A stretch of 36,039 nt of DNA from a virus, in IMG/VR virus record IMGVR_UViG_3300034106_000381, positions 1 through 36,039 of that record. One strand, written 5' to 3'. Positions 3,270 to 31,084 of this stretch are shown here, piece by piece. Numbering within the stretch: the stretch's first letter is position 1; every line of letters begins with the position of its first letter. Made by a program: the position numbers and the translations under genes. The notes under the pieces are model-generated. The model was not told where the DNA came from and made no database searches. It worked only from the letters and a program-made list of their open reading frames with translations.

Positions 3270-3298
3270 TTGACAAGATGTTCCATCTCAGGTATAAC
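3270..3298 (+). promoter_or_regulatory. near-consensus sigma70 promoter P2
   Basis: TTGACA (3270-3275), a 17-base spacer, and TATAAC (3293-3298) match the sigma70 consensus at 11 of 12 positions. The -10 ends on the first base of the tRNA, so initiation would fall about 7 bases inside it. Transcripts from here would express the HNH gene and rIIAB but carry a truncated tRNA. Confidence 0.6.
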
Positions 3299-3374
3299 TG
3301 CCACTAGCTCAACTGGACAGAGCAACAGTCTTCTAAACTGTAGGTTCCGTGTTCGAATCACGGGTGGCAGGCCA
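3298..3374 (+). tRNA. tRNA-Arg (anticodon UCU)
   Basis: A complete cloverleaf: acceptor CTGCCAC/GTGGCAG, D-stem GCTC/GAGC, anticodon stem ACAGT/ACTGT with loop CTTCTAA, 5-base variable region, T arm CCGTG-TTCGAAT-CACGG, then discriminator G and an encoded CCA (3372-3374). The anticodon UCU decodes AGA (and AGG by wobble), codons normally rare in GC-rich Rhodobacteraceae but common in this phage's genes, so it probably supports phage translation. It is preceded by a degenerate relative and followed at once by an HNH endonuclease gene. Confidence 0.93.
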
Positions 3375-3392
3375 ACACAAAAGGAATATCCC

Positions 3393-3875
3393 ATGGAAAT
3401 CTGGAAAAATTGCGTAGATTACCCTGACTTGTTCGAGGTATCTAATCTCGGTAACTTTAGGAACAAGCGCAACAAGAAAGAGTTAAAACAGTGGTTGCAC
3501 CCGCATGGATACCTCCATGTCGCCACTAAAATCGGTGGTAGGAAAGGTAAGAATGTTTGCTTCAAAGTACACAGGGAGGTTGCAAAAGCCTTTATACCAA
3601 ACCCAGATAACCTACCTGTAGTGAATCATATGGATGGGGTAAAGACAAATAATTGTCTGCTCAACCTTGAGTGGGCATCTGTTTCAGGTAACGCCATTCA
3701 TGCTACAAGAAGAGGTTTGAACAAAGTTCCAATCAATCCGTTCAAACTCACAGAAGAACAGCAGGGATGGGTGCGTGAAAGTTATAGGCCTCGTGACAGA
3801 GAGTTCGGGGCGAGGGCTTTGGGAAGATTGTTTGGAGTATGCCATACCACAGTGCTAAGGGTACTTAAACAATAG
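3393..3875 (+). CDS. NUMOD4-HNH homing-type endonuclease, 160 aa
   Basis: Homing-type nuclease predicted to cleave DNA at a specific site and promote its own spread. An N-terminal NUMOD4 motif (EIWKNCVDYPDLFEVSNLGN, residues 2-21) is followed by an HNH_3 core with H60 (VHREVAKAF), NHMDG at 78-82 and N86, then a C-terminal helix-turn-helix-like segment (about 138-158) for DNA recognition. ATG 3393 follows AAGGAA; upstream in-frame codons run through the tRNA and are not used. The gene is AT-richer than its left neighbours and sits directly behind a tRNA, typical of a mobile insertion. It is free-standing; no intron is evident. Confidence 0.88.
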   Translation: MEIWKNCVDYPDLFEVSNLGNFRNKRNKKELKQWLHPHGYLHVATKIGGRKGKNVCFKVHREVAKAFIPNPDNLPVVNHMDGVKTNNCLLNLEWASVSGNAIHATRRGLNKVPINPFKLTEEQQGWVRESYRPRDREFGARALGRLFGVCHTTVLRVLKQ

Positions 3876-7148: not shown

Positions 7149-7183
7149 GGTAGCACAGGTCTTTCTTCATGGCAAGTGCTACC
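7149..7183 (+). promoter_or_regulatory. 8-bp inverted repeat before the integrase gene
   Basis: GGTAGCAC (7149-7156) and GTGCTACC (7176-7183) can pair, with a 19-base loop. The hairpin ends 20 bases before the integrase ATG. There is no following T-run, so it is more likely an operator, attachment-site element or RNA structure controlling integrase translation than a terminator. Confidence 0.5.
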
Positions 7184-7202
7184 TTCAACAAAAGAGGACG
7201 AC

Positions 7203-8288
7203 ATGAAATACACTCGTAAAGTCAAGAACAAGGATGGCTCTGTCGTTCACAGGTTCGTCCCACCACCAGAGGTTCTCAAGGCTGGTGTCGTTAAGTCTCA
7301 GACCTTCAAGGATGGTAGGGCTGCACGTTACGAAGTCCCTAGACTGATGGAGAAGGTGGAGGCTTATCGAAGAGGAGAGATCAAGGAAGGGAACGTAGGA
7401 CCAAGCTCCAAGATCATCCATGTCATCAACTATTACCTGTCGTCCAAGCAGTTTGCCTCTCTCGCTAACAGGTCTCAGATCAAGTACGAGGCAGACTTGA
7501 AGAGTGTTTCTCGTTCAGACCTTGGCCACATCTCAATTAACAAATTGACTGCGAAGATATGCAAGGAAGCCTACGAGGATTGGGTTCAAGCACACTCGGT
7601 TGCGAGGGCCAATGAGAGGGCAAGGATACTTTCCATCGTACTCAACTTCGCCCGATCTCTTGATCTTATCAACGACAACCCAATGTCCAAGGTGAAGAAG
7701 CTGAGACATGAACCTAAGACACCGATCTGGACGAGGGATCAGGTTGAAGTCTTCCTTGATACTGCCTTCACCAAGTTCGAGTGGAGAAACGTGGGGCTTC
7801 TGGTGATGATGTGCTATGAGTGGGCGCAAAGACCAACAGACATCTGCCACCTCAAGTGGGACAACCTCGACCTCGACAATGCAAGGATGAAGGTCAAGCA
7901 ATCCAAGAGAGGTGCAGAGGTAGAGATGCCCATTGAGGAACCCCTGCTGACCATGCTCAAGGAACAGAAGGAAGATTGGGGCTTCCAGAAGTACGTGGTG
8001 CCACACCACAGGGCCAGCGATAATGCCTATGTCCCCTTGAAACCTGAATCGTTTGGACCTATACTTCGCCAGATAAAGCAGGCATGTGGCTTGCCAGAAG
8101 AGTTGAAGATTGGACACCTGAGAAAGACTGCCATCACAGAGTTTGTAGCAGCAGGGGTTGACAGCACAGGCATCATGCAGGTAACAGGACACAAGAACAT
8201 CGCCAGCCTCAACCCGTACATGAGGCACACATACGAGGGTGCTAAGACAGCACAAAACGTCAGAAAGGGTTACAAAGATGGTCCGTAG
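7203..8288 (+). CDS. int: tyrosine recombinase (integrase), 361 aa
   Basis: Site-specific recombinase of the phage integrase family; would integrate or excise DNA, or resolve genome multimers. All catalytic residues are visible: R210 in EWAQRPTDICHLKW, a Lys in the KVKQSKRG hairpin (232/235), H305-x-R307 (GHLRKTA), H330 (TGHK) and the nucleophile Y339 (SLNPYMRHT). An N-terminal region and a SAM-like core-binding domain (about 68-155) precede the catalytic domain. ATG 7203 with AGAGGACGAC is preferred to GTG 7176, which lies in the inverted repeat. Its presence in an otherwise lytic-type gene set is notable; marine podoviruses of the P-SSP7 type also carry one. No repressor gene was recognised nearby. 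Confidence 0.92.
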   Translation: MKYTRKVKNKDGSVVHRFVPPPEVLKAGVVKSQTFKDGRAARYEVPRLMEKVEAYRRGEIKEGNVGPSSKIIHVINYYLSSKQFASLANRSQIKYEADLKSVSRSDLGHISINKLTAKICKEAYEDWVQAHSVARANERARILSIVLNFARSLDLINDNPMSKVKKLRHEPKTPIWTRDQVEVFLDTAFTKFEWRNVGLLVMMCYEWAQRPTDICHLKWDNLDLDNARMKVKQSKRGAEVEMPIEEPLLTMLKEQKEDWGFQKYVVPHHRASDNAYVPLKPESFGPILRQIKQACGLPEELKIGHLRKTAITEFVAAGVDSTGIMQVTGHKNIASLNPYMRHTYEGAKTAQNVRKGYKDGP

Positions 8289-10712: not shown

Positions 10713-12264
10713 ACCATGCCCCTTCGAGAATTGCAAAAGCTCTGACGCATTCTCTTGGAACGACAACGGGTATGGACAGTGCAAATCTTGTGGACAGAGT
10801 TACCCATCTAAGGGTATGAAGGGACTGAAAGATTGGGCAAAGGAGACCTACCCAGTGAAGCAACAAGTCGATGTAAGAAGTCTGCCAGTCTCTAAGGTTA
10901 GCTACGATGATATTCGTGGTCTGGACCCTGATGTGTGCAAGCTGTATGGTATTCAGCTTCACCTTGACGACAATGACAAACCTGTGCGCTATGCCTTCAA
11001 GCATACGGACAATGTGAAGTACCGTGGCTACGACGAGAAGGTGTTCTGGACCAAGGAGAAGGGCAAGCCTTTCGAGGATTTGTTTGGACCTGAGTTCAAT
11101 GCTGGCACATCCAAGCGTATCTACATCACGGAGGGGGAGTTCGATTCTGCCTCCCTCTACCAAATCCTTGGCAAGACCTATCCAGTTAAGTCACTTCCCA
11201 GTGCTGGCATTGGGGAGAAGTTTGTCAAGAAGAACTACGCCTACCTCAACTCCTTCCAAGAGGTTGTGTATGCAGGTGAACTGGACGAGGCAGGCAAGAG
11301 AGCCGCAGAGGTTCTGTATGGTGCCTTCCCCCAGAAGTTCTGGTATGTCCCCATGTCTCAGCACAAGGACGCCAATGAGTTCCTGATGGCTGGCGCTGGT
11401 GACGCACTCAAGTGGGCTGCAATCAAACCCCAACGCTACACCCCAGACAACTTCTTCTGTTCGTCGTTGGATGTGGAGAAAGCAATCCTCACCGAGAACC
11501 CCTACGAGTACGTTCCTACAGGACACACTGGGATCGACGAGAAGTGCAGGGGTTTGGTCAAGGGTGGCATTACATTCATCAAAGCCCCTCGTGGTACAGG
11601 TAAGACAGAGGTGATCCGTTACTTCGAGACTGCCATGCTGCGTGACCCTGATGAACGCATTGCCCTGCTGCACATGGAAGAGATGAAGTCCACCACCTAC
11701 CGTGCTATGGCCACCTACGAGTTGGGTGTTAATGTTCGTACCAAGGATGATGCCAAGTACAACGCTGTGGACGAGAAGGAGGTCATTGATGCAGCAATCA
11801 AGGCCACCAAGGGGGAACGCACCATCATCTTCGAGATGCGTCTCCACGACGATCCTATGAAGCTGTTGGAGTATGTGCGTCTTGCTGCCTCGGTCTATGG
11901 TGCAGGCTTTATCTTCATCGACCACGTTCAGCGTCTGGCCTACTTGTCGAGTGCTGGTGTTGATGGTGCTACTTCCCTGCTGACCGCTCTCGGTTCTCAG
12001 ATGGCGCAGCTTGCCAAGGAACTGAACATTGGTGTGATCTTCATCTCACAGGTGAACGAGGATGGTCGGACAAAGTATGCTGCGGCCTTGGAAGAAGAGG
12101 CTATCATCTGCATGAAGATTGAGCGTGACGTAGAGAATGAGGACGAGGTGGAGCAGAACACTACCTACTTCCACATTGACAAGAACCGCCCATTCGCTAA
12201 GCTGGGTGCTGCTGGTTCCCTCTACTGGGACTCTGACACAACAATCCTCCGAGAAGGTTTCTGA
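10693..12264 (+). CDS. T7 gp4-like primase-helicase, 523 aa
   Basis: Bifunctional replication protein that makes RNA primers and unwinds DNA at the fork. The N-terminal zinc ribbon has C9, C14, C30 and C33. A TOPRIM domain follows, with ITEGEFDSAS (145-154) and GELDEAGKRA (195-204), where the usual D-x-D reads E196-L-D198. The RecA-like helicase has Walker A APRGTGKT (298-305), a linker helix, and Walker B FIFIDHVQ. Start is GTG 10693 with GAGGAAGA upstream; there is no better ATG ahead of the zinc motif. At 523 residues it matches T7 gp4 (566) in design. It lies directly upstream of the PcfJ-like gene and DNA polymerase. Confidence 0.92.
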   Translation: MTEHPHKPCPFENCKSSDAFSWNDNGYGQCKSCGQSYPSKGMKGLKDWAKETYPVKQQVDVRSLPVSKVSYDDIRGLDPDVCKLYGIQLHLDDNDKPVRYAFKHTDNVKYRGYDEKVFWTKEKGKPFEDLFGPEFNAGTSKRIYITEGEFDSASLYQILGKTYPVKSLPSAGIGEKFVKKNYAYLNSFQEVVYAGELDEAGKRAAEVLYGAFPQKFWYVPMSQHKDANEFLMAGAGDALKWAAIKPQRYTPDNFFCSSLDVEKAILTENPYEYVPTGHTGIDEKCRGLVKGGITFIKAPRGTGKTEVIRYFETAMLRDPDERIALLHMEEMKSTTYRAMATYELGVNVRTKDDAKYNAVDEKEVIDAAIKATKGERTIIFEMRLHDDPMKLLEYVRLAASVYGAGFIFIDHVQRLAYLSSAGVDGATSLLTALGSQMAQLAKELNIGVIFISQVNEDGRTKYAAALEEEAIICMKIERDVENEDEVEQNTTYFHIDKNRPFAKLGAAGSLYWDSDTTILREGF

Positions 12265-12265
12265 C

Positions 12266-13504
12266 ATGGCAAAGTATGAACTCTCTTCTGACAAGAACGT
12301 AGTGATGCTTGGTGATACGAAGTTCGAGGAGTTCTTCAACAGCCACAATAATTCCTACATGTTCCTTGAGTGGGCACAGGGATGGTTTGAGGTTGGATCG
12401 TTTGACTGGCATCCTAAGTCTGTCAACAAGACATTGCACACAGCCTTCGGTTCTAAAATACCATTGCGCTTCTCTGCTGCGATGTACAATACCTTCATCA
12501 AGGCAAACATCCCTCTGGAAGCATACTTTGCAGTCACAAGCTTTGGTAAGCATTGGAAAACCTTCGACCCTAGGTTGGTGAACAGTGCTGTGGAACACAA
12601 CCACCTTGTCCAACAGGCGATTAGGGATAACACCCTGAATGTTCTACCGCTTATGTTGCACAAGAAGATGGACACACAGCAACTCAAGGCTGAGTATGGC
12701 AAGGGGTTGTGGAAGAAGCTGTCGAACACCAGCAAGTCTCGCATGAAGTTGCTTGCCAGAGTGATTGATAAAAACCCAGAGTGGGCAGAAGTCAGAACCT
12801 GTATGCTTAAGGAGTATAGGGGTAACATCTTTGATGATGAGTCTGCACTGATAGCAGCAAGGATTGCACCCAAAGCAGGCACGTTCCGTCAGACTGAGCA
12901 CATGATTTACGACACAGTGCGGATGGCCAATCGTCAGGGTGAGACTGTGAATCCTCGGTGGTCCTACAAGCGTTGGGAAGAAGAGCACAGCAGGCTGACC
13001 AAGGACTTGCTGACGAAACAGTACAGCGACAAGCCCTTCACAGATGTTGCAGTCTATGAAGAAGGTGGGTATACTTTCACCCTATTCAACAACCAACTGG
13101 ACATTGCGACAGAAGGCAAGACCATGCACCATTGTGTTGCATCCTATGCTGGGCAAGCAAGCCGTGGTAAGTATGCTGTGTTCAGGGTTGAAGGTAAAGG
13201 AGAACGGGCTACCCTTGGGCTTAACTATGGAAATCTGCTTCCAATCCGTCCGAGAGAGTTTTACTTCGACCAGTGTTATGGTATGATGAACTCTCTGGTT
13301 TCTGAGAAGCTCCGCACCGCTGCACTAACGATCACAACGAGGCACAATGATTATCTTCGACTGCGAGACGGACGGACTGCTGGACAAGGCGACGAAGGTT
13401 CACGTGCTGTCTTGGACAACGGACGGGAAGGAGTTCCACTCAACCAATTCCTACGAGGGAATGCGATCCATGCTGTCTGGATCGACGATCTTAATTGGGC
13501 ATAA
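12266..13504 (+). CDS. PcfJ-like domain protein, 412 aa
   Basis: Recognised by a PcfJ-like C-terminal region: TEGKTMHHCVASYAGQ (282-297, with H288-H289-C290), then KYAVFRVEG, ATLGLN and FDQCYGMMNS (334-343). PcfJ is named from a conjugative plasmid protein; its molecular activity is not established. The first 250 residues are helical and unrecognised. ATG 12266 lies two bases after the primase stop. The frame runs 158 bases into the DNA polymerase gene, so the last 51 residues are read out of phase with conserved exonuclease codons. A neighbouring frame would stop at 13350 in an ATGA with the polymerase start, hinting at an old frameshift. Role in replication is inferred from position. Confidence 0.7.
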   Translation: MAKYELSSDKNVVMLGDTKFEEFFNSHNNSYMFLEWAQGWFEVGSFDWHPKSVNKTLHTAFGSKIPLRFSAAMYNTFIKANIPLEAYFAVTSFGKHWKTFDPRLVNSAVEHNHLVQQAIRDNTLNVLPLMLHKKMDTQQLKAEYGKGLWKKLSNTSKSRMKLLARVIDKNPEWAEVRTCMLKEYRGNIFDDESALIAARIAPKAGTFRQTEHMIYDTVRMANRQGETVNPRWSYKRWEEEHSRLTKDLLTKQYSDKPFTDVAVYEEGGYTFTLFNNQLDIATEGKTMHHCVASYAGQASRGKYAVFRVEGKGERATLGLNYGNLLPIRPREFYFDQCYGMMNSLVSEKLRTAALTITTRHNDYLRLRDGRTAGQGDEGSRAVLDNGREGVPLNQFLRGNAIHAVWIDDLNWA

Positions 13505-22631: not shown

Positions 22632-25600
22632 CTATTCAATGCGTTCCTTTGGGAAACCTACAAACCCTGTGCTCATCTTCTTAGACCAAGTCATAATCTC
22701 TTGTCTTCGAAGAAGCTCTTCAAGGATACTATCAGAATCTCCAAGGTAGTCTGCAGCATTGGCAAAGTTACCCTGAGTGAAAGTACTCACAGCAGTGTCA
22801 TAAACACCTTTGTCGCCAGAGTCCGTGATAGCCTGTCTTTCAGAGATAACGTACAGGTTACGGATGTAGCCTGCAGCTACTTTGGGTCTCTCTTGCAAGA
22901 GGTTCTCAAACCCAGCGGATGCTTGTTCTTTAGCGGCAGTGATCTCACTCTTGATGAACTCTTCCAACAAGAACCGTTTAATGTTGTTGTCTTCGATCTC
23001 ATCATAGGTCTGATCTGCAAACCTACCACCATGCTTGACTTGCTCTTTCCAAGCGAAGAACTTCTGAGGTAGGTTCTTCCCCAACATTTCTCTGACAAAA
23101 ACATCTACCGCAGGGTTCTCAACAGTCTTACTGCCATAGAGTTCAAACTCTTTCAGCCCCATACGGCTGATCTCTTTCTGCAGTTCGTTAGGCTTTCTCG
23201 AAGACTGCATACCAAGTTGTTTGGAGAGCGGATCAAGAGCACCGATAGGAGTAGAGCTAAAGGGGCTGTAGTACGGGATAGAAGTCTTGCCGTTGTAACT
23301 CTGAGCATACTGAACAAAGTCTACCTCGGGCAAGAAGCGTGTGGCCCTACGGAGCATTTCATCCAGATAATTACCTTCACCAAAAATCTCAGGCTCTTCG
23401 AGGCTACCACCAAACACTTCTCTCGTGTAAGGGGTTGTAACCAAGTCAGGATTAACCTGTCCCAAGAAGTCTCTGGTAGGGGTCAGAGGGTATGTAAAGG
23501 TAGCAGCAACGTCACCCAGAGACCTAGCAAGACCAAGGGTCACTCTGCCTTCATCGTAACTCTTCCCAATCTCCACAAGCAACGGTGCAGAGATACCAAG
23601 ATCAGTCTGACCAATAGAGATGTCCATCATGGTGCTGAGAACTTTATCTGTAGGCAGATCATTCTTCCAACGATAATAAAGATCACCCAGATACAGGTTC
23701 ATCAACCAAGGACCAGCAGTACGGCTCAGATCGACAACACCAGTATCTGTCTGCATCTTATCGTAGTCAACAGTACCATCTGTGGATGCAGCAGTGTATG
23801 CACCCAGCATGAAGAGAGAGGCACCTGTCATTTGTCTTGCAAAACGATCCTGACCTGTCTTGTTGAAATCACCAAACACAGTATCATCGTATCTGTTCAA
23901 ACCACCAGTAACGATACCAATGGGGGTATAGTCATTGATGTGTTCAAGATGGTTGGCGATGTATCTTGGGAAGGGGATACCTGCACCTGCAGAGACGACG
24001 AAAGGAAGCTTGTGGTGAGCATCAATGACACTCTGAGCTACCGTACCAAATGCAGACTTGTCACCCCTGTAAGAGCGTTGGAAAGTGAACCTGCGGGCAT
24101 CATCAGTGGCCTTGGCCAAGACACCTTCTGGGAGATTGTCCAGAGGGAGCTTCTTGTCTAGGAACTCCCCAAGGTTCAGACCCAGAGCAGGATCAGCAAG
24201 TTCCTGCAACTGTCTGTCTACACTGGAATAGAGAGTAGCCTGCTTGAACACAGAGTCGATAGTGGAGTTAAGGATGTTGACACCACGGCTCACACCAGCC
24301 ATACGAGAGGTGCTTTCAGAGGCCACTTCTGCACGAGATGCTTCATAGAACAGTTGAGAATATTGCTCTGGTTGTTCTTCCAAGAACACTTCTCTGAACA
24401 GTCTAGCATCCTCTTTGTTCCAAGACAGACCCTTGATCGTGGAGAGAGTGCCACCAAGCCAACGACGTTGAACAGTATCACCAGCCTGCTTCCCAAGAGT
24501 CACATTGGCCACGTTCTTCCAGAATTGGTCGGACATGTCGATGATGAGGTTACCTGTGGAGGTGATGGTGTTTGCCGCAGTGGTACCAAGCTGAGATGTC
24601 ATAAAGGCAATACGGATAGCGTCCGCATCCTGCAGTGCACGGTAGACAGGGTTACCCTTACCCTTATATACGCTTGCAGCAGCCTTACGAAGTTCAGCAT
24701 CAGCCAGAGTTTCAAGACCATTCTCAGCCAAGAAATCTAGATCGCTTGTCGTCGCCTCTACACCCTTCTTAGCAGTCTCTTTCGCAGCCTTACGACCCTG
24801 AGACTTGCTGATGTAGCTTGCCTCTGCCAAGGTCTTACCAGCCTGAGAGAGATCAGCCAAGAAGATGTAAGAGGTCTGTTCTTTTGTTAGGTTGTACTTG
24901 TCACGCAGGGAGCTAAGATACCCACTGTCAATCCTACCCTCTCTGATACCCCTTGCAACGGCAGAAGAGATACGCTCATTAGGGTTGACGTTCAGGTTCT
25001 CAGAAATCTCAATGGTAGCAGCAGTGATGCTTCTCAGGGTGTCTATGGAGAGGTTAGCAGTAACAAGCCTGTCAACGCTCCCAGAGAGGACTTCTTTCTT
25101 GAGCAGGTTACCTTTCTCGACCAATTTAGGATCAAGAGGATCAAGCTGCACACCATCAAAACGTGCCTGCAAGTTCAGGGCAGCGGTTACAGCACGATCA
25201 GCAGCACTAGAGGCTTTGTCTGGGCTTACCGCAGAGAGGGTCTCTTTTGCAGCCTCATTACCTGCTTGCTTCCTTACTGTAGCAGAGGCATCCCGCGAGA
25301 TAATCCTGTCCACAACAGCACGTTGGGTCTTTGTATCCAGAGCACGTACACCAGAACCGAGAGCACCACCAATAGTGGCGGAAATAACACCATCACGCAG
25401 CAAGTCTCCAGTGGTGTACTCAATCCCAGCGGCAACCTCACGTGTCTCCCCCTGCAGGCCAGCCTGACCAGCACCAAGAGCGCCTTCTACTACAGCGGAT
25501 GTGACCCCACCCTTAATAGCTTGTCTACCGACTGTACCTACAACCTGATCTTTTACAGCACTGGTAGCAACACCCTTACGAACAAGGTCAGAAATGGTCT

Positions 25601-26054
25601 GACGCATTGCAAGCTGTGCAGCCTTACCAGATGCCTTCGTAGCAAGTTTAGAGCCAATGCCCCAACCAGCAGTGCCTACAGTAGCAAGGGTGCTGGGAGA
25701 GGTAGCAAAGGCAGACAGATAGTCCCATGCACCAGAGAGCTTCCCTGTGCCACCACCCTCGGCCCTATCATATGCCATCATCAACTTACCAAAGGATTCC
25801 AGTTCCTCGGAAGGGATGTCTTCTTGTTGTACATAGTTGTAGTCTTTGAGGGCAGTGAGTTCGTTAGTGTCTTGCCATCGCATGTGTTCGACAAACTTCT
25901 CTGTCAAACCCTCTGCCCCAAGCTCCTTCATCTCCTCAGCAGTCATCCCATAGCGAGAGCCACGGAAGAACCTTACAAGGTCTCTTTGAAACTCTGGGTT
26001 ACTGGTAAAATCAGTAAGGTACTTGCCGTCCACTTCTTCGAGGTAGCTGCCCAT
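22632..26054 (-). CDS. large internal virion (ejection) protein, 1140 aa
   Basis: A 1140-residue protein placed last in the leftward virion operon. The size, the alanine/glycine-rich amphipathic segments (for example TVGTAGWGIGSKLATKASGK near 130 and GGVTSAVVEGALGAGQAG near 185) and long helical regions resemble podoviral internal core or DNA-ejection proteins such as T7 gp16. No transglycosylase motif is seen in it; that activity sits in the 239-aa protein upstream. It probably inserts in the host envelope during DNA delivery. The ATG overlaps the preceding stop as TAATG. Confidence 0.75.
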   Translation of the reverse strand: MGSYLEEVDGKYLTDFTSNPEFQRDLVRFFRGSRYGMTAEEMKELGAEGLTEKFVEHMRWQDTNELTALKDYNYVQQEDIPSEELESFGKLMMAYDRAEGGGTGKLSGAWDYLSAFATSPSTLATVGTAGWGIGSKLATKASGKAAQLAMRQTISDLVRKGVATSAVKDQVVGTVGRQAIKGGVTSAVVEGALGAGQAGLQGETREVAAGIEYTTGDLLRDGVISATIGGALGSGVRALDTKTQRAVVDRIISRDASATVRKQAGNEAAKETLSAVSPDKASSAADRAVTAALNLQARFDGVQLDPLDPKLVEKGNLLKKEVLSGSVDRLVTANLSIDTLRSITAATIEISENLNVNPNERISSAVARGIREGRIDSGYLSSLRDKYNLTKEQTSYIFLADLSQAGKTLAEASYISKSQGRKAAKETAKKGVEATTSDLDFLAENGLETLADAELRKAAASVYKGKGNPVYRALQDADAIRIAFMTSQLGTTAANTITSTGNLIIDMSDQFWKNVANVTLGKQAGDTVQRRWLGGTLSTIKGLSWNKEDARLFREVFLEEQPEQYSQLFYEASRAEVASESTSRMAGVSRGVNILNSTIDSVFKQATLYSSVDRQLQELADPALGLNLGEFLDKKLPLDNLPEGVLAKATDDARRFTFQRSYRGDKSAFGTVAQSVIDAHHKLPFVVSAGAGIPFPRYIANHLEHINDYTPIGIVTGGLNRYDDTVFGDFNKTGQDRFARQMTGASLFMLGAYTAASTDGTVDYDKMQTDTGVVDLSRTAGPWLMNLYLGDLYYRWKNDLPTDKVLSTMMDISIGQTDLGISAPLLVEIGKSYDEGRVTLGLARSLGDVAATFTYPLTPTRDFLGQVNPDLVTTPYTREVFGGSLEEPEIFGEGNYLDEMLRRATRFLPEVDFVQYAQSYNGKTSIPYYSPFSSTPIGALDPLSKQLGMQSSRKPNELQKEISRMGLKEFELYGSKTVENPAVDVFVREMLGKNLPQKFFAWKEQVKHGGRFADQTYDEIEDNNIKRFLLEEFIKSEITAAKEQASAGFENLLQERPKVAAGYIRNLYVISERQAITDSGDKGVYDTAVSTFTQGNFANAADYLGDSDSILEELLRRQEIMTWSKKMSTGFVGFPKERIE

Positions 26055-27100
26055 TATTTGATTCTCTTTTTCTCTTCTTCTTCGATGATACTAAAGTAGG
26101 AGTCACCAAGATCATCCCCAGCTTGCTCTACTTGCTGACCCGCAGGTTCTGGAATCTCCACCACAGGGGTAGGCACATATTTCGTAGCAAAGGTCACAGG
26201 GTCCAGCATAACGGCATCGAAGTTGGTCACTAGGTCTTTTGCACCAGCAGTCTTAGCGGTAGTTACTGCAGTCTGGATATTTTTTGCGACAGTTGCTGCT
26301 GCATCTGTAGGAGTAAAACTTCTGGTGGGACCAAAAGCCATGTCTCTTGCACGTTCTTCTGCCAGACTGAACAACTCTGCAACACTCCTATCTGCATTCT
26401 GAGAGATGGTAACTTCACCTGTTTCAGGGTTCTGAATGAAAGAGTCTGTGAAGAAAGGTTGAAGTTTTCTTGCAATCTCGGAACCGATGTTCTTGGTCTC
26501 AGTCTCTTCTGCACCAGATGCGTAGCTGAAGTCCAACCTAAATGGGGCGATACCAGTTGCAGTGTCTGTGTCGTAGAGTTTCCGACTGACTTCATCTAGT
26601 TGCTCAGACGAAGTAGCCCCGTAGATGGCTTCCACCATGGCAAGAGTTGATTGCGCAGGGTCTGCAACATCTCTCTCAGTAGAGACACCAAGTACCATTG
26701 CCTTGGAGATTGCATCGCCACCCACTTCTTTCAGCTTGCTAGAGACAAAGGTGTTGAGGTCTTTTACAAACTCGGGATCAACTTTCTTGTTCTTCTCATA
26801 CTGGTCAAGGAAAAATCCCAACTGTCCACTCTGTTGTAATGCTGTGGCAGTATCTTTTGTGACACCGAGGCCAACAGCCAGAGCAACTTGAGCCTTTTGA
26901 GCCTTCTTCTCTTTTTCCGACTCAGTCAAAAACCCAATCAAGGTGTCCTTACGACGCTCCAAGATTTCCAAATTGAAGAGTTCTCTGGCCTCTTTACGGG
27001 TTGCTTCCTTTTCTTTACGAACCTCTTCAAGCTCCTGCTCACGCATCTTACGTTCTTTGATATTCAGATGTGCCTGATAGATACCTTGCCAAACACCCAT
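26054..27100 (-). CDS. putative internal virion protein, 348 aa
   Basis: A 348-residue, highly helical protein with a strong N-terminal coiled coil (about 12-75: KERKMREQELEEVRKEKEA onward) and an alanine-rich remainder, ending in a basic Lys/Arg tip. Position between the 170-aa and 1140-aa genes, with TAATG overlaps on both sides, suggests a structural or ejection-complex component analogous to T7 gp14/gp15. No sequence family is recognised; the role is inferred from context. Confidence 0.65.
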   Translation of the reverse strand: MGVWQGIYQAHLNIKERKMREQELEEVRKEKEATRKEARELFNLEILERRKDTLIGFLTESEKEKKAQKAQVALAVGLGVTKDTATALQQSGQLGFFLDQYEKNKKVDPEFVKDLNTFVSSKLKEVGGDAISKAMVLGVSTERDVADPAQSTLAMVEAIYGATSSEQLDEVSRKLYDTDTATGIAPFRLDFSYASGAEETETKNIGSEIARKLQPFFTDSFIQNPETGEVTISQNADRSVAELFSLAEERARDMAFGPTRSFTPTDAAATVAKNIQTAVTTAKTAGAKDLVTNFDAVMLDPVTFATKYVPTPVVEIPEPAGQQVEQAGDDLGDSYFSIIEEEEKKRIK

Positions 27101-27612
27101 TAGATGTCCTCCCGAGCCATGAACCCTTTACGTGGGGTTGTCTTTTCTTTTGGAGTTTCGGGGATTTCCATAGACTCTTTTGCAACTGTCTTAGGGCTTC
27201 TCCCACCAAGCTCTTCAAATTCTTTAGATGTCAGGCCAACAACCCTAGCCTTACGGTAATTTTCTTCTGCAACCTTGTCTTCAAACCCATCATCTGCCTC
27301 AATGCCTGCAGCCGCAGCAGCTTGCTTAATAAACTCGTGTATGACAGGGGCAATAATAAGTGCGACATCAATAGAGTGCATACCCTGTGCAACGGCACCA
27401 CGAAGACGCCCTTGCACCACAGTCTTAATATCAAGTCCATCAAGCTCAAGCAGATCAAGAGCTATACGAAGTCTCTTGGGATCAGACATCTTTGTCAGGT
27501 GCATTTGAAGGGCTGCTTCTGGGTCAGAAATCTCTGGTGGCCGTTCCCAAGGGAAGCCTTTAGGTTCTGTCGTCAGGGATTGGCCGGGGATAGGTCCGCT
27601 AAGTGATTGCAT
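27100..27612 (-). CDS. conserved marine phage virion-region protein, 170 aa
   Basis: The start LSGPIPGQSLTTEPKGFPWE, the HLTKMSDPKR segment and HSIDVALIIAPVIHEFIK are features I recall from conserved hypothetical proteins of marine podo- and myoviruses. The protein is alpha-helical with a disordered, Pro/Lys-rich C-terminus. It may be a small virion protein or assembly factor for the neighbours; function unknown. TAATG overlaps join it to both flanking genes. Confidence 0.7.
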   Translation of the reverse strand: MQSLSGPIPGQSLTTEPKGFPWERPPEISDPEAALQMHLTKMSDPKRLRIALDLLELDGLDIKTVVQGRLRGAVAQGMHSIDVALIIAPVIHEFIKQAAAAAGIEADDGFEDKVAEENYRKARVVGLTSKEFEELGGRSPKTVAKESMEIPETPKEKTTPRKGFMAREDI

Positions 27613-28344: not shown

Positions 28345-30162
28345 TTAGCCGGTAATCCAGTCCCAAAGAAGGGCCGTCCTAGCTTCTTTTTCTTTTTGGT
28401 TCTCTTCCCACTTAGTTAGTGCATCTTTCTTATCTGCAAGGAGGACTTCCAAAGCTCTGTCCTCTTCCCTCTCAAGAGAGTTCCAAGCATACGACAGCAC
28501 ATCTCTTTCCCTTTGCCAAATTTCATCCATAGCCTTTGCAGTCATACCATTCATGCTTTTTGCAAATTCAAGATTAGATTCGTTCTGTGCAGCAGTGTTA
28601 GTGGTAACAATCTCTTGTCTCCACTTGGCATTGGCCTGTGCGATAATCAAAGAGTTTGAAGCGTTGAACTGTTTTCTCTGGGCTTCAAGCTGAGCGTTAA
28701 AACGAGAGGTGGCATTCTTCTCCCCAGCATTGAACTGGGCCATAGCATTCTTCTGTTCTGAATTGAACATAGACACACGAGAACCAAGGTCAGCAAAGAA
28801 CTGGTCAGTCTGGTTCTTACTGGCAGCATTGAACTGACGGGCAGCATTGATAGCAGCCTGATCTGTAAAGAGAGCCTGAACATTCGACTGAGCACGGAAC
28901 ATTGTCGCCTGCTGTCTGTTGTCCAAGTTAGCCATGTCCATCTGCAAGAAAGCCTGAGCGTTCTGCACTGCAGCCTGTTGACGATTGCTCAAGTTTGCCA
29001 TATCAAGGTTTGCAAGTGCAGCAGCCTTAGCCATAACCATACCCTGACGAGCATCAAGGTTGGCAAGGTTCATTGTATTTACTGCACGGCTATTCTCCAG
29101 AGCGATATTCTGTTCTGCAGTAAAGTTCATGTTAGCGATGTCAGAAATCTTTGCTGCGTTTAGAACTCTTGTCTGGAAAGCCTGATCGAAGTCCATCTGC
29201 AAGAAAGCAGCACGTTGCTGAGCGGCAAAGAGAGCAGTCTGTTGTCTGTTGGAGAGGTTCTGGGATTCAAACTGAGCAAAGGTAGAGGCATCAGCCTGAG
29301 CAATAGGGAGTGCAGATTCCATAGCAGCCTGAATAACTGCCTGACCAGCAAGTGAGGATGCACCAAGACCTCTCTGGGATAGCATGGCCTGAGCATTACG
29401 CATAGCACCAGCAGCCCAAGCAGGTGTATTACCACCCTCGAACTGAGTCATCAGACCTTCAAGCTGGCCCTGAACTGTAGCCTTTTCTGAGGGTGTGGCT
29501 GTAGCTGCCTTGACGTTTTTCATCAGCTTATTGACTTTGGCAGCATCAACGGCACTACCAGAGACTAGCTCTCCCCTTTCAAGCTCCCTCTGAACAGGGT
29601 TGTCCATAAGGAAAGCTTCCCCTTGAGCAGCTTCCATGCCAGAGATAGAACTTGTAGTCTGTTGTGCCGCTGTTACTTGAGCGCCCTTAGAGACTGTACC
29701 CTGCTCTCCTTTAACACCCTTGACAGCCTTAGAGACATCATCCGCGACAGTATCCGCAGTCATGGTAGCAGGAGCAGTAACTTTAGGTGCAGCAGCAGTA
29801 GTGGTATCAGCAGTAACAGCAGTGGTAGCAACTGTAGGCGTGGTCACCTGTCCTGTACCAGCAGCAATAATGGTTCCGGGAGTCTCAGTAACCTTAGCTA
29901 CCTCTGCCTCTTCAATTAGACTGGCTGGGTTTTGGATAGCTGCTTCTGCAAGCTGTGTTCCGGGGTTTTTAGTGGTACCACCTGTAGCCATACCAGCAGT
30001 ATTCACACTAGTACGTTTCTGCAGAGCACGAGAGAACTTACCCATACGAGCAGCTACACCCGGACTAGATTGAATGAAAGCCTCCATGGCTGGACCTTCT
30101 GCGGGACCAGTGTAACCCATCTTAGAGAGTAGGCTATATTTTTGATTAGTATCGAAATCCAC
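28345..30162 (-). CDS. virion protein with 21 hendecad repeats, 605 aa
   Basis: Probable internal virion or ejection protein. Residues 1-85 are mixed; 86-175 are a low-complexity Thr/Ala/Val region; 180-290 are helical. From 302 to 532 the sequence follows an uninterrupted 11-residue period: position one is Asn in 15 of 21 repeats, position eleven is mostly Phe/Ala/Met (NLSNRQQTALF, NAGEKNATSRF, NAQLEAQRKQF). Such hendecads make long, right-handed or straight helical bundles. The C-terminus is charged helix ending LLWDWITG. Located between endolysin and transglycosylase genes and headed by its own candidate promoter. No homologue function known to me. Confidence 0.75.
   Translation of the reverse strand: MDFDTNQKYSLLSKMGYTGPAEGPAMEAFIQSSPGVAARMGKFSRALQKRTSVNTAGMATGGTTKNPGTQLAEAAIQNPASLIEEAEVAKVTETPGTIIAAGTGQVTTPTVATTAVTADTTTAAAPKVTAPATMTADTVADDVSKAVKGVKGEQGTVSKGAQVTAAQQTTSSISGMEAAQGEAFLMDNPVQRELERGELVSGSAVDAAKVNKLMKNVKAATATPSEKATVQGQLEGLMTQFEGGNTPAWAAGAMRNAQAMLSQRGLGASSLAGQAVIQAAMESALPIAQADASTFAQFESQNLSNRQQTALFAAQQRAAFLQMDFDQAFQTRVLNAAKISDIANMNFTAEQNIALENSRAVNTMNLANLDARQGMVMAKAAALANLDMANLSNRQQAAVQNAQAFLQMDMANLDNRQQATMFRAQSNVQALFTDQAAINAARQFNAASKNQTDQFFADLGSRVSMFNSEQKNAMAQFNAGEKNATSRFNAQLEAQRKQFNASNSLIIAQANAKWRQEIVTTNTAAQNESNLEFAKSMNGMTAKAMDEIWQRERDVLSYAWNSLEREEDRALEVLLADKKDALTKWEENQKEKEARTALLWDWITG
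28567..29259 (-). repeat. region coding 21 consecutive 11-residue repeats
   Basis: Codes residues 302-532 of the 605-aa protein. Repeats start at 302, 313, 324 and so on to 522 without any insertion. A 22-residue super-period is visible early on (NLSNRQQ at 302 and 390, NLDARQG at 368, NLDNRQQ at 412). In the second half QF-N junctions dominate. Confidence 0.85.
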
Positions 30163-30223: not shown

Positions 30224-31084
30224 TTACCCAAGCAACTTAGCTAGGGTTTTAGGTCCAGCCACACCATCAGCGGTCAATCCGTTAGCAGTCTGCCACTTCT
30301 TCAGAGCAGCTTCAGTTCCCGGACCAAAGTCACCGTCAGCAGTGAGACCAAGCTTGGCTTGCATCTTCTTTACCATGTCACCCTTCGAACCACGACGCAG
30401 AGCTTGAGTCACTGCATCAGTAATCTGGGAATTGATGGAGACTTCAATCTTACCACCAAGAGCAGCCATTGCCTTAGCGTAACGAGCCTGACGGTCAGCC
30501 AAACCAATGTCACCACCATTAATGATTTTGGTCAGTCTTGTCACGTCGCCAGTGTCAGCAACCTCATTCAGATTGCGGCTGTTCCAGAACCACAAAGCAC
30601 TCTCCAGAGCACCCTTCTTGGTCAACAGGTAAGCAGCAGCTTCTTCAGCAGTCATGCCAACAGTCTTGCCGAAGGCAGTCGTATTTGCACGGCCAGTAAC
30701 TTGCTTCAGACCTTTTCCAGAAAATAACCACCCGTCACCATCCTTTAGATTACCTAAAGCACCAGCCTTTGAGCGATTTTTATCCATGTAAACGTAGTTG
30801 GCAATTTTCTCAGGCTTACCTGCATACTCAGCGGCATTCTCTTTGCCGGGACCAAAGTACCTCGGGAACACCTTGAGCAGGGTGGCTTCTTTGTAGTTCA
30901 GGTTCTCTTGTAGTACCCGGAAGTCCATGCTCTCGTGAGCACACTGAGAAATGAAACCTGCAATTCTCTTGTCGGTCGTAATGTTGTACTTAGGCAACAT
31001 CTCGTTCAGGGCAGCACACCACTCTGCAACTTCTTTATTGGTGGGGATCATTACGGCCAGTTGGGCCTCTGTCAGTAGGCTCAT
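30224..31084 (-). CDS. GH19 endolysin with peptidoglycan-binding domain, 286 aa
   Basis: Degrades peptidoglycan at the end of infection. The GH19 (chitinase-like) domain spans about 5-210: AHESMDFRVLQENLNY with E51 as catalytic acid and E60, then FSGKGLKQVTGR (121-132), equivalent to the usual RGRGLIQLTG but with Lys at two positions. A PG_binding_1 domain follows at about 227-286 (RRGSKGDMVKKMQAKLGL, DGDFGPGTEAALKKWQ). There is no signal peptide, so it should need the holin to reach the wall. The start overlaps the 76-aa gene stop as ATGA. Confidence 0.92.
   Translation of the reverse strand: MSLLTEAQLAVMIPTNKEVAEWCAALNEMLPKYNITTDKRIAGFISQCAHESMDFRVLQENLNYKEATLLKVFPRYFGPGKENAAEYAGKPEKIANYVYMDKNRSKAGALGNLKDGDGWLFSGKGLKQVTGRANTTAFGKTVGMTAEEAAAYLLTKKGALESALWFWNSRNLNEVADTGDVTRLTKIINGGDIGLADRQARYAKAMAALGGKIEVSINSQITDAVTQALRRGSKGDMVKKMQAKLGLTADGDFGPGTEAALKKWQTANGLTADGVAGPKTLAKLLG

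Follow-up and report, generated by a model that had tools for sequence, protein, structure and literature searches.

A hendecad-repeat rod protein of HMO-2011-type podoviruses changes length in whole 11-residue units and may serve in DNA ejection

Helical virion proteins built on units of 11 residues (hendecads) are already known from siphophage tape measure proteins and from the phiX174 H protein. Passages of Belcaid et al. 2011 (PMC3271669) and of work on TP901-1 (PMC5099701) describe 11-residue repeats in tape measures, virion proteins that also aid DNA transit, and a subset of tape measures varies in length by whole repeat units. The H protein of phiX174, a single-stranded DNA phage, forms a decameric tube of three hendecads followed by heptads, with a lumen lined by Asn, Gln and Arg (PDB 4JPP, PMC7354561). 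In the short-tailed phage SU10, gp20–24 are part of the virion and are gone after genome release (PMC9509320). The P22 tail needle gp26, a known trimer, represents another class of long helical rod, one that is external and based on heptads.

HMO-2011-type podoviruses are very abundant short-tailed viruses of the ocean. The window analysed here, the whole 36,039-nt stretch of IMG/VR record IMGVR_UViG_3300034106_000381, is a fragment of such a virus and, like other members of the group, encodes a polymerase, a helicase and a ribonucleotide reductase. Its rod protein is 52–62% identical to that of Puniceispirillum phage HMO-2011 (phage1322_25) and to those of the closer Roseobacter CRP phages, with homology running through the helical hairpin ahead of the rod, the rod itself and the Trp-containing module at its end, and with synteny to a neighbouring 170-aa gene (Table 1). 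The window also carries a phage integrase family gene (7176–8288, + strand; PF00589, E 6e-22), so this phage may be able to integrate, as well as a NUMOD4/HNH homing-endonuclease-like gene (3270–3875, + strand) and, between the helicase and DNA polymerase A genes, a gene for a PcfJ-like domain protein (12137–13504, + strand; PF14284, E 7e-10).

Table 1 Features of the rod gene and its neighbourhood in the window
Feature	Position (nt)	Strand	Basis or remarks
1140-aa protein, last of block, slot of large ejection-type protein	22632..26054	-	gene order; no family match
348-aa protein, slot of medium ejection-type protein	26054..27100	-	gene order; no family match
170-aa constant neighbour, hydrophobic stretch aa 73-101	27100..27612	-	
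Transglycosylase-like protein, 239 aa	27612..28331	-	PF06737 E 3e-6, phrog_4067
Rod protein gene	28345..30162	-	605 aa, GTG start; no Pfam, PHROG, NCBIfam match
C-terminal helical (Trp) module, aa 514-569	28456..28623	-	WR...WQxERD...DR, conserved
Rod, 21 hendecads, aa 302-532	28567..29259	-	
Helix-turn-helix module (hairpin), aa 226-300, ahead of rod	29263..29487	-	invariant columns; predicted helices
N-terminal region, aa 1-190	29593..30162	-	variable, Ala/Thr-rich, partly low predicted confidence
Endolysin with peptidoglycan-binding domain, directly upstream of rod gene	30224..31084	-	phrog_181 E 5e-65, PF01471 E 2e-13

Three different family queries returned the same 27 phage records, comprising HMO-2011-type phages of SAR116, Roseobacter RCA and SAR11 hosts, the phages CHOED, MQM1 and Slicky (hosts Vibrio, Aeromonas and Pseudoalteromonas) and rhizobial phages. 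Viral contigs added 352 relatives of the window protein and 516 of one freshwater member. The window protein matched no entry among Pfam, PHROG, NCBIfam and PDB sequences, and in a fold search with the helix all significant matches (E up to 1e-3) appeared, by identity and length, to be members of the same family, with tape measure proteins at E 0.47 or worse.

An earlier note, made from the letters of this DNA, had described 21 uninterrupted 11-residue repeats in the protein, and its counts proved exact: residues 302–532 map precisely onto 28567–29259, the 21 units follow one another without a gap, Asn occupies position 1 in 15 of them, and position 11 is Phe in eight, Ala in five and Met in two (15/21). 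Self-identity of the window protein is 0.19–0.25 at lags of 11, 22, 33 and 44 residues, as against about 0.08 at most other lags. Column identity gives a z-score of 17.9 at period 11, 12.6 at 22 and 6.6 at 33, while every remaining period among 3–33 stays below 2, and block shuffles that preserve local composition never reach the period-11 signal. The first three or four units are weak (sliding z of 2–3 before about residue 330), strong periodicity extending from about 331 to 539. Tandem Repeats Finder reports no DNA-level repeat in the window rod gene; the repeat is one of protein. Together with a dN/dS of 0.07–0.15 over the rod between close relatives, this indicates an old repeat under purifying selection.

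Two conserved modules frame the rod. The hairpin carries the motifs ARGLGASSMAGQA and ALPIAQADA, with helices predicted at 248–263 and from 271 onwards, and the Trp module shows zero indels among the relatives aligned. The N-terminal region is swapped in relatives for far longer or different N-termini. One of these, in CRP235_gp25 (L101:4630-7161), holds a LysM domain at aa 71–110, a predicted peptidoglycan-binding module that is fused to the rod protein rather than encoded nearby. For those N-terminal extensions of long relatives that were searched, Pfam gave no convincing domain and the PDB no match. At one locus with a long rod gene, L224, the N-terminal region contains a separate 165-nt tandem repeat (L224:871-1224; 2.1 copies, 96% match).

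The length of the rod changes by whole hendecads throughout the family. Across 46 non-redundant relatives the rod block is gap-free in most, the remainder lacking either exactly 22 residues or one unit at the beginning. P286, before the rod, and W514, near its end, lie 228+11k residues apart in 18 of 18 divergent reference and window proteins. Two anchor HMMs run over all fetched loci placed 249 proteins, of which 96 were left at <80% identity, and in 96/96 of these the spacing between the flanking anchors is again 228+11k, although these sequences share kinship and their number is not that of independent events. Seven of the lengths lie off the base by steps other than 110 residues, and these alone would agree by chance with a probability of (1/11)^7, about 5e-8. 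Rod length takes 17 different values among the 96 relatives, between 151 and 778 residues (23–117 nm for a single helix at about 0.15 nm per residue; 34 nm for the window rod), with single-hendecad differences among them (k = -7, -6, -5, -4, -2, -1 and 2). Out-of-register lengths, which the earlier note had named as the outcome that would speak against it, were sought in the same set and found in 0/96, although the N-terminal region of these proteins varies freely in length. Register locking of the rod, as read from these alignments, is thus strongly supported, and an unbroken helix whose register is kept by selection, the rigid-rod half of the earlier proposal, is well supported.

A second, larger unit governs the long rods. 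Where k is at least 5, k mod 10 is 0 or 8 in 42/42 rods, with k values of 8, 10, 18, 20, 28, 30, 38, 40 or 50, so that, judged by these spacings, each long rod has one or other of two base lengths, to which ten hendecads (110 residues) are added a whole number of times. Self-identity at lag 110 reaches 0.5–0.56 in the longest rods, and the DNA of locus L224 contains a 330-nt unit in 3.6 copies with 80% match; the long rod there precedes genes of unchanged size class (171 and 553 aa). Whereas 11-residue units have precedents, the 110-residue superunit appears, within the literature searched, to be new; searching the tape-measure paper (PMC3271669) by terms yielded no 110-residue unit.

Unit-sized changes in length could also arise without selection on rotation, if inter-repeat recombination adds and drops whole units and both register and length are mutational by-products. 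With 330-nt units at 80% match in one of the longest rods, that of L224, unequal exchange of this unit would be easy. The 33-nt units are, by contrast, too diverged for slippage, given the lack of a DNA repeat in the window gene and an identity of about 20% at lag 11, and single-hendecad length differences do occur while out-of-register lengths never do, despite free length variation in the N-terminal region; we therefore regard a by-product as decidedly improbable. At the other extreme, the rod might be a molecular ruler graduated in steps of 16.5 nm, each made up of 110 residues, or ten hendecads and thirty helical turns; the window rod would hold about two such units and other rods up to about seven. 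The 110 residues would then be the repeat of an oligomer superhelix or of a binding partner, long rods would extend by whole units only, and podoviruses would have in the rod an extension of adjustable reach with which to cross envelopes or outer layers that differ in thickness. We consider this ruler unlikely. Rod length shows no obvious correlation, judged by eye, with the length of the partner proteins.

Composition and prediction both bear on the form of the rod. Proline is absent from all 28,466 rod residues, Asn and Gln each make up 14–15%, and charged residues make up only about 14%. AlphaFold2 places helices in the window protein at 271–320, 327–384 and 397–604, a second run agreeing; pLDDT is 83–87 for residues 431–530, with means of 55 and 61 in the two runs. 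The rod is thus predicted, at modest confidence, to be helical and helix only, where a globular or disordered prediction would have counted against the earlier proposal. The rod shows an unbroken 11-residue period within a predicted helix, as expected of a hendecad (11/3) coiled coil. The hydrophobic face of the window helix shifts near residue 420, and helical wheels of the 96 rods reveal no constant single hydrophobic face over full rods.

Four relatives, CRP-3, CRP-738, CRP-212 and CRP-235, carry Peptidase_S74 at the C-terminus, above the curated cut-off. Peptidase_S74 is a self-cleaving chaperone. Because the S74 chaperone of T5 pb1 is trimeric (PMC4690869), its presence in these four makes a trimer our best guess for the oligomeric state, judged from domain content. 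A trimer has no central space for duplex DNA, and no fixed span fits a fivefold range of lengths (23–117 nm); the earlier idea of a conduit sized to the periplasm is therefore not sustained.

A tube need not match the periplasm, and the phiX174 H protein invites the reading of the rod as an alpha-helical barrel, a many-copy conduit for DNA passage with an Asn/Gln-rich lining. The two proteins share Gln/Asn-rich hendecads (11 is the top period of H as well), a low share of charged residues in the rods would suit such a lining, and a helix bundle for DNA entry is established for H and proposed here. The barrel is nevertheless distinctly unlikely: S74 implies trimers where H is a decamer, H turns to heptads after its hendecads, belongs to a single-stranded DNA phage and has no detectable relation to the rod in sequence, no PDB chain matched the rod, and lengths of up to 117 nm go far beyond an envelope. 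A case for two packing faces, made from the second wheel harmonic exceeding the first in 96/96 rods, was dropped after failing its own control, as the trimer P22 gp26 does the same; since gp26 is a known trimer, the wheel test is silent on oligomer number.

Gene order gives the rod its functional context. The rod gene lies between tail-fibre/endolysin genes and a block with the 170-aa, medium and very large genes, an arrangement that resembles those of the ejection genes in P22 and SU10. In relatives the order is rod, small genes, 170-aa protein, medium protein (about 300–930 aa) and a protein of 800–1900 aa. The 170-aa gene lies downstream of the rod gene in 78 of the 79 loci with room for it and has homologues in 24 of the phage records, and the 1140-aa protein has one in CRP-13. 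A place among ejection-type genes, as suggested in the earlier note, is accordingly plausible by gene order, although the 348-aa and 1140-aa neighbours lack a family match. The transglycosylase to which that note drew attention is indeed beside the rod gene in the window, but it adjoins it in only 4/95 loci of relatives and was dropped as a functional partner.

Gene position, S74 in four relatives and LysM in one favour an ejection-class virion protein. The S74 ends of CRP-738 and CRP-235 match phrog_4287, annotated 'DNA ejection protein', the family that also includes SU10 gp21 and gp22, and P22-like phages place an S74 protein in the first slot of their ejection trio. The rod family shares with P22 gp7 and the phiEco32, SU10 and 7-11 ejection proteins (phrog_598, phrog_4287) the gene slot, an S74 C-terminus in some members and Gly-rich hydrophobic C-terminal tails. 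Most gp7-type proteins tested differ from the rod in having no 11-residue period; one of those first-slot S74 proteins, H6/1 gp17 (L107:5140-6213), which belongs to the P22 gp7 family, has a strong one at aa 133–286 as well as a C-terminal S74 domain. Outside S74, the rod family has no detectable homology with known ejection proteins, and what ties it to those of P22 and SU10 appears to be gene position and a domain rather than shared ancestry. Comparison of the core without S74 to gp7-type proteins by hhalign (E 0.66, against 0.58–0.77 for reversed controls) was rejected as homology, and a match of CRP-3 to phrog_6121 at aa 258–618 was set aside because it may stem from the S74 domain of CRP-3. 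An RGQ-marked 11-residue stretch near aa 226–258 of P22 gp20 (L113:10069-11484) exceeds block shuffles, but comprises only four or five units and was left out of the evidence.

Tail fibres carry S74 more often than ejection proteins do, and a domain such as that of the four relatives typifies trimeric fibres, as the trimeric T5 pb1 chaperone illustrates. The rod could alternatively be a coiled coil on the outside of the virion, a trimeric tail needle or fibre shaft that, in the manner of P22 gp26, closes off the tail or extends to the cell surface. The wide variation in rod length would suit this alternative, as would a long helical rod encoded between tail-fibre genes and an ejection-type block, the P22 needle gene standing just before gp14, gp7, gp20 and gp16. 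Yet gp26 has a top period of 7, whereas the window rod has period 11 and none at 7; the conserved middle and C-terminal module with a variable N-terminus are the reverse of a receptor-binding fibre; the rod is conserved over hosts from SAR11 to Vibrio and Rhizobium, with low dN/dS between close relatives; and the N-terminal LysM of CRP-235 better fits a target in the cell wall. We judge an external needle or shaft unlikely, and an ejection-class protein is our best reading, ahead of both this and a tube like phiX174 H.

Taken as a DNA-ejection-class component of short-tailed virions, the rod would be one long proline-free alpha-helix that forms a bundle with its own copies, straight or slightly right-handed (11/3, 3.67 residues per turn). 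Because 11 residues make almost exactly three turns, a whole-hendecad change alters length without rotating the hairpin relative to the Trp module; indels of other sizes would break the packing and the alignment of the hairpin at the base with the Trp module at the tip, and would be selected out. Longer rods would grow by duplication of the 110-residue, ten-hendecad cassette. Several copies may be stored in the virion and leave before the DNA, like a tape measure or ejection protein, the rod holding the exit point of the virion away from, and in register with, the cell-wall- and membrane-acting partners that its neighbours probably encode. For this account as a whole, with bundle, cassette growth and mode of ejection as proposed, we put the chances at about even. 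The stepwise changes in length suggest that the geometry of the rod is strictly protected, probably for bringing viral DNA into the cell. A rod quantised at 11 and 110 residues across distant phages amounts to a clean rule on helix rotation, perhaps in a machine that crosses envelopes.

Like siphophage tape measures, the rod is a long helical protein of 11-residue units with gapless self-alignment, unit duplications and losses, and aromatic markers, and its family shares whole-unit length variation with that subset of tape measures that shows it. It differs in lacking any sequence or significant fold match to them and in marking its units with Asn rather than Trp. MQM1, one of the 27 phage records, has a tail of 9.2 nm (PMC10410586), whereas its rod of 184 residues would extend for about 28 nm, so the rod cannot measure that tail. 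A tape-measure-like rod in short-tailed phages is suggested nonetheless, which would link siphophage tape measures to podoviral ejection proteins.

A second protein with an 11-residue period, of about 480–500 aa (CRP3_gp27 and its counterparts; L089:4799-6244, L099:2000-3454, L101:1996-3471 and L100:2423-3934), adjoins the lysozyme in CRP-3, CRP-738 and CRP-235. Its units are rich in Phe, Gln and Asp (for example FDGQEDFITDE), and the CRP-212 counterpart looks alike by eye.
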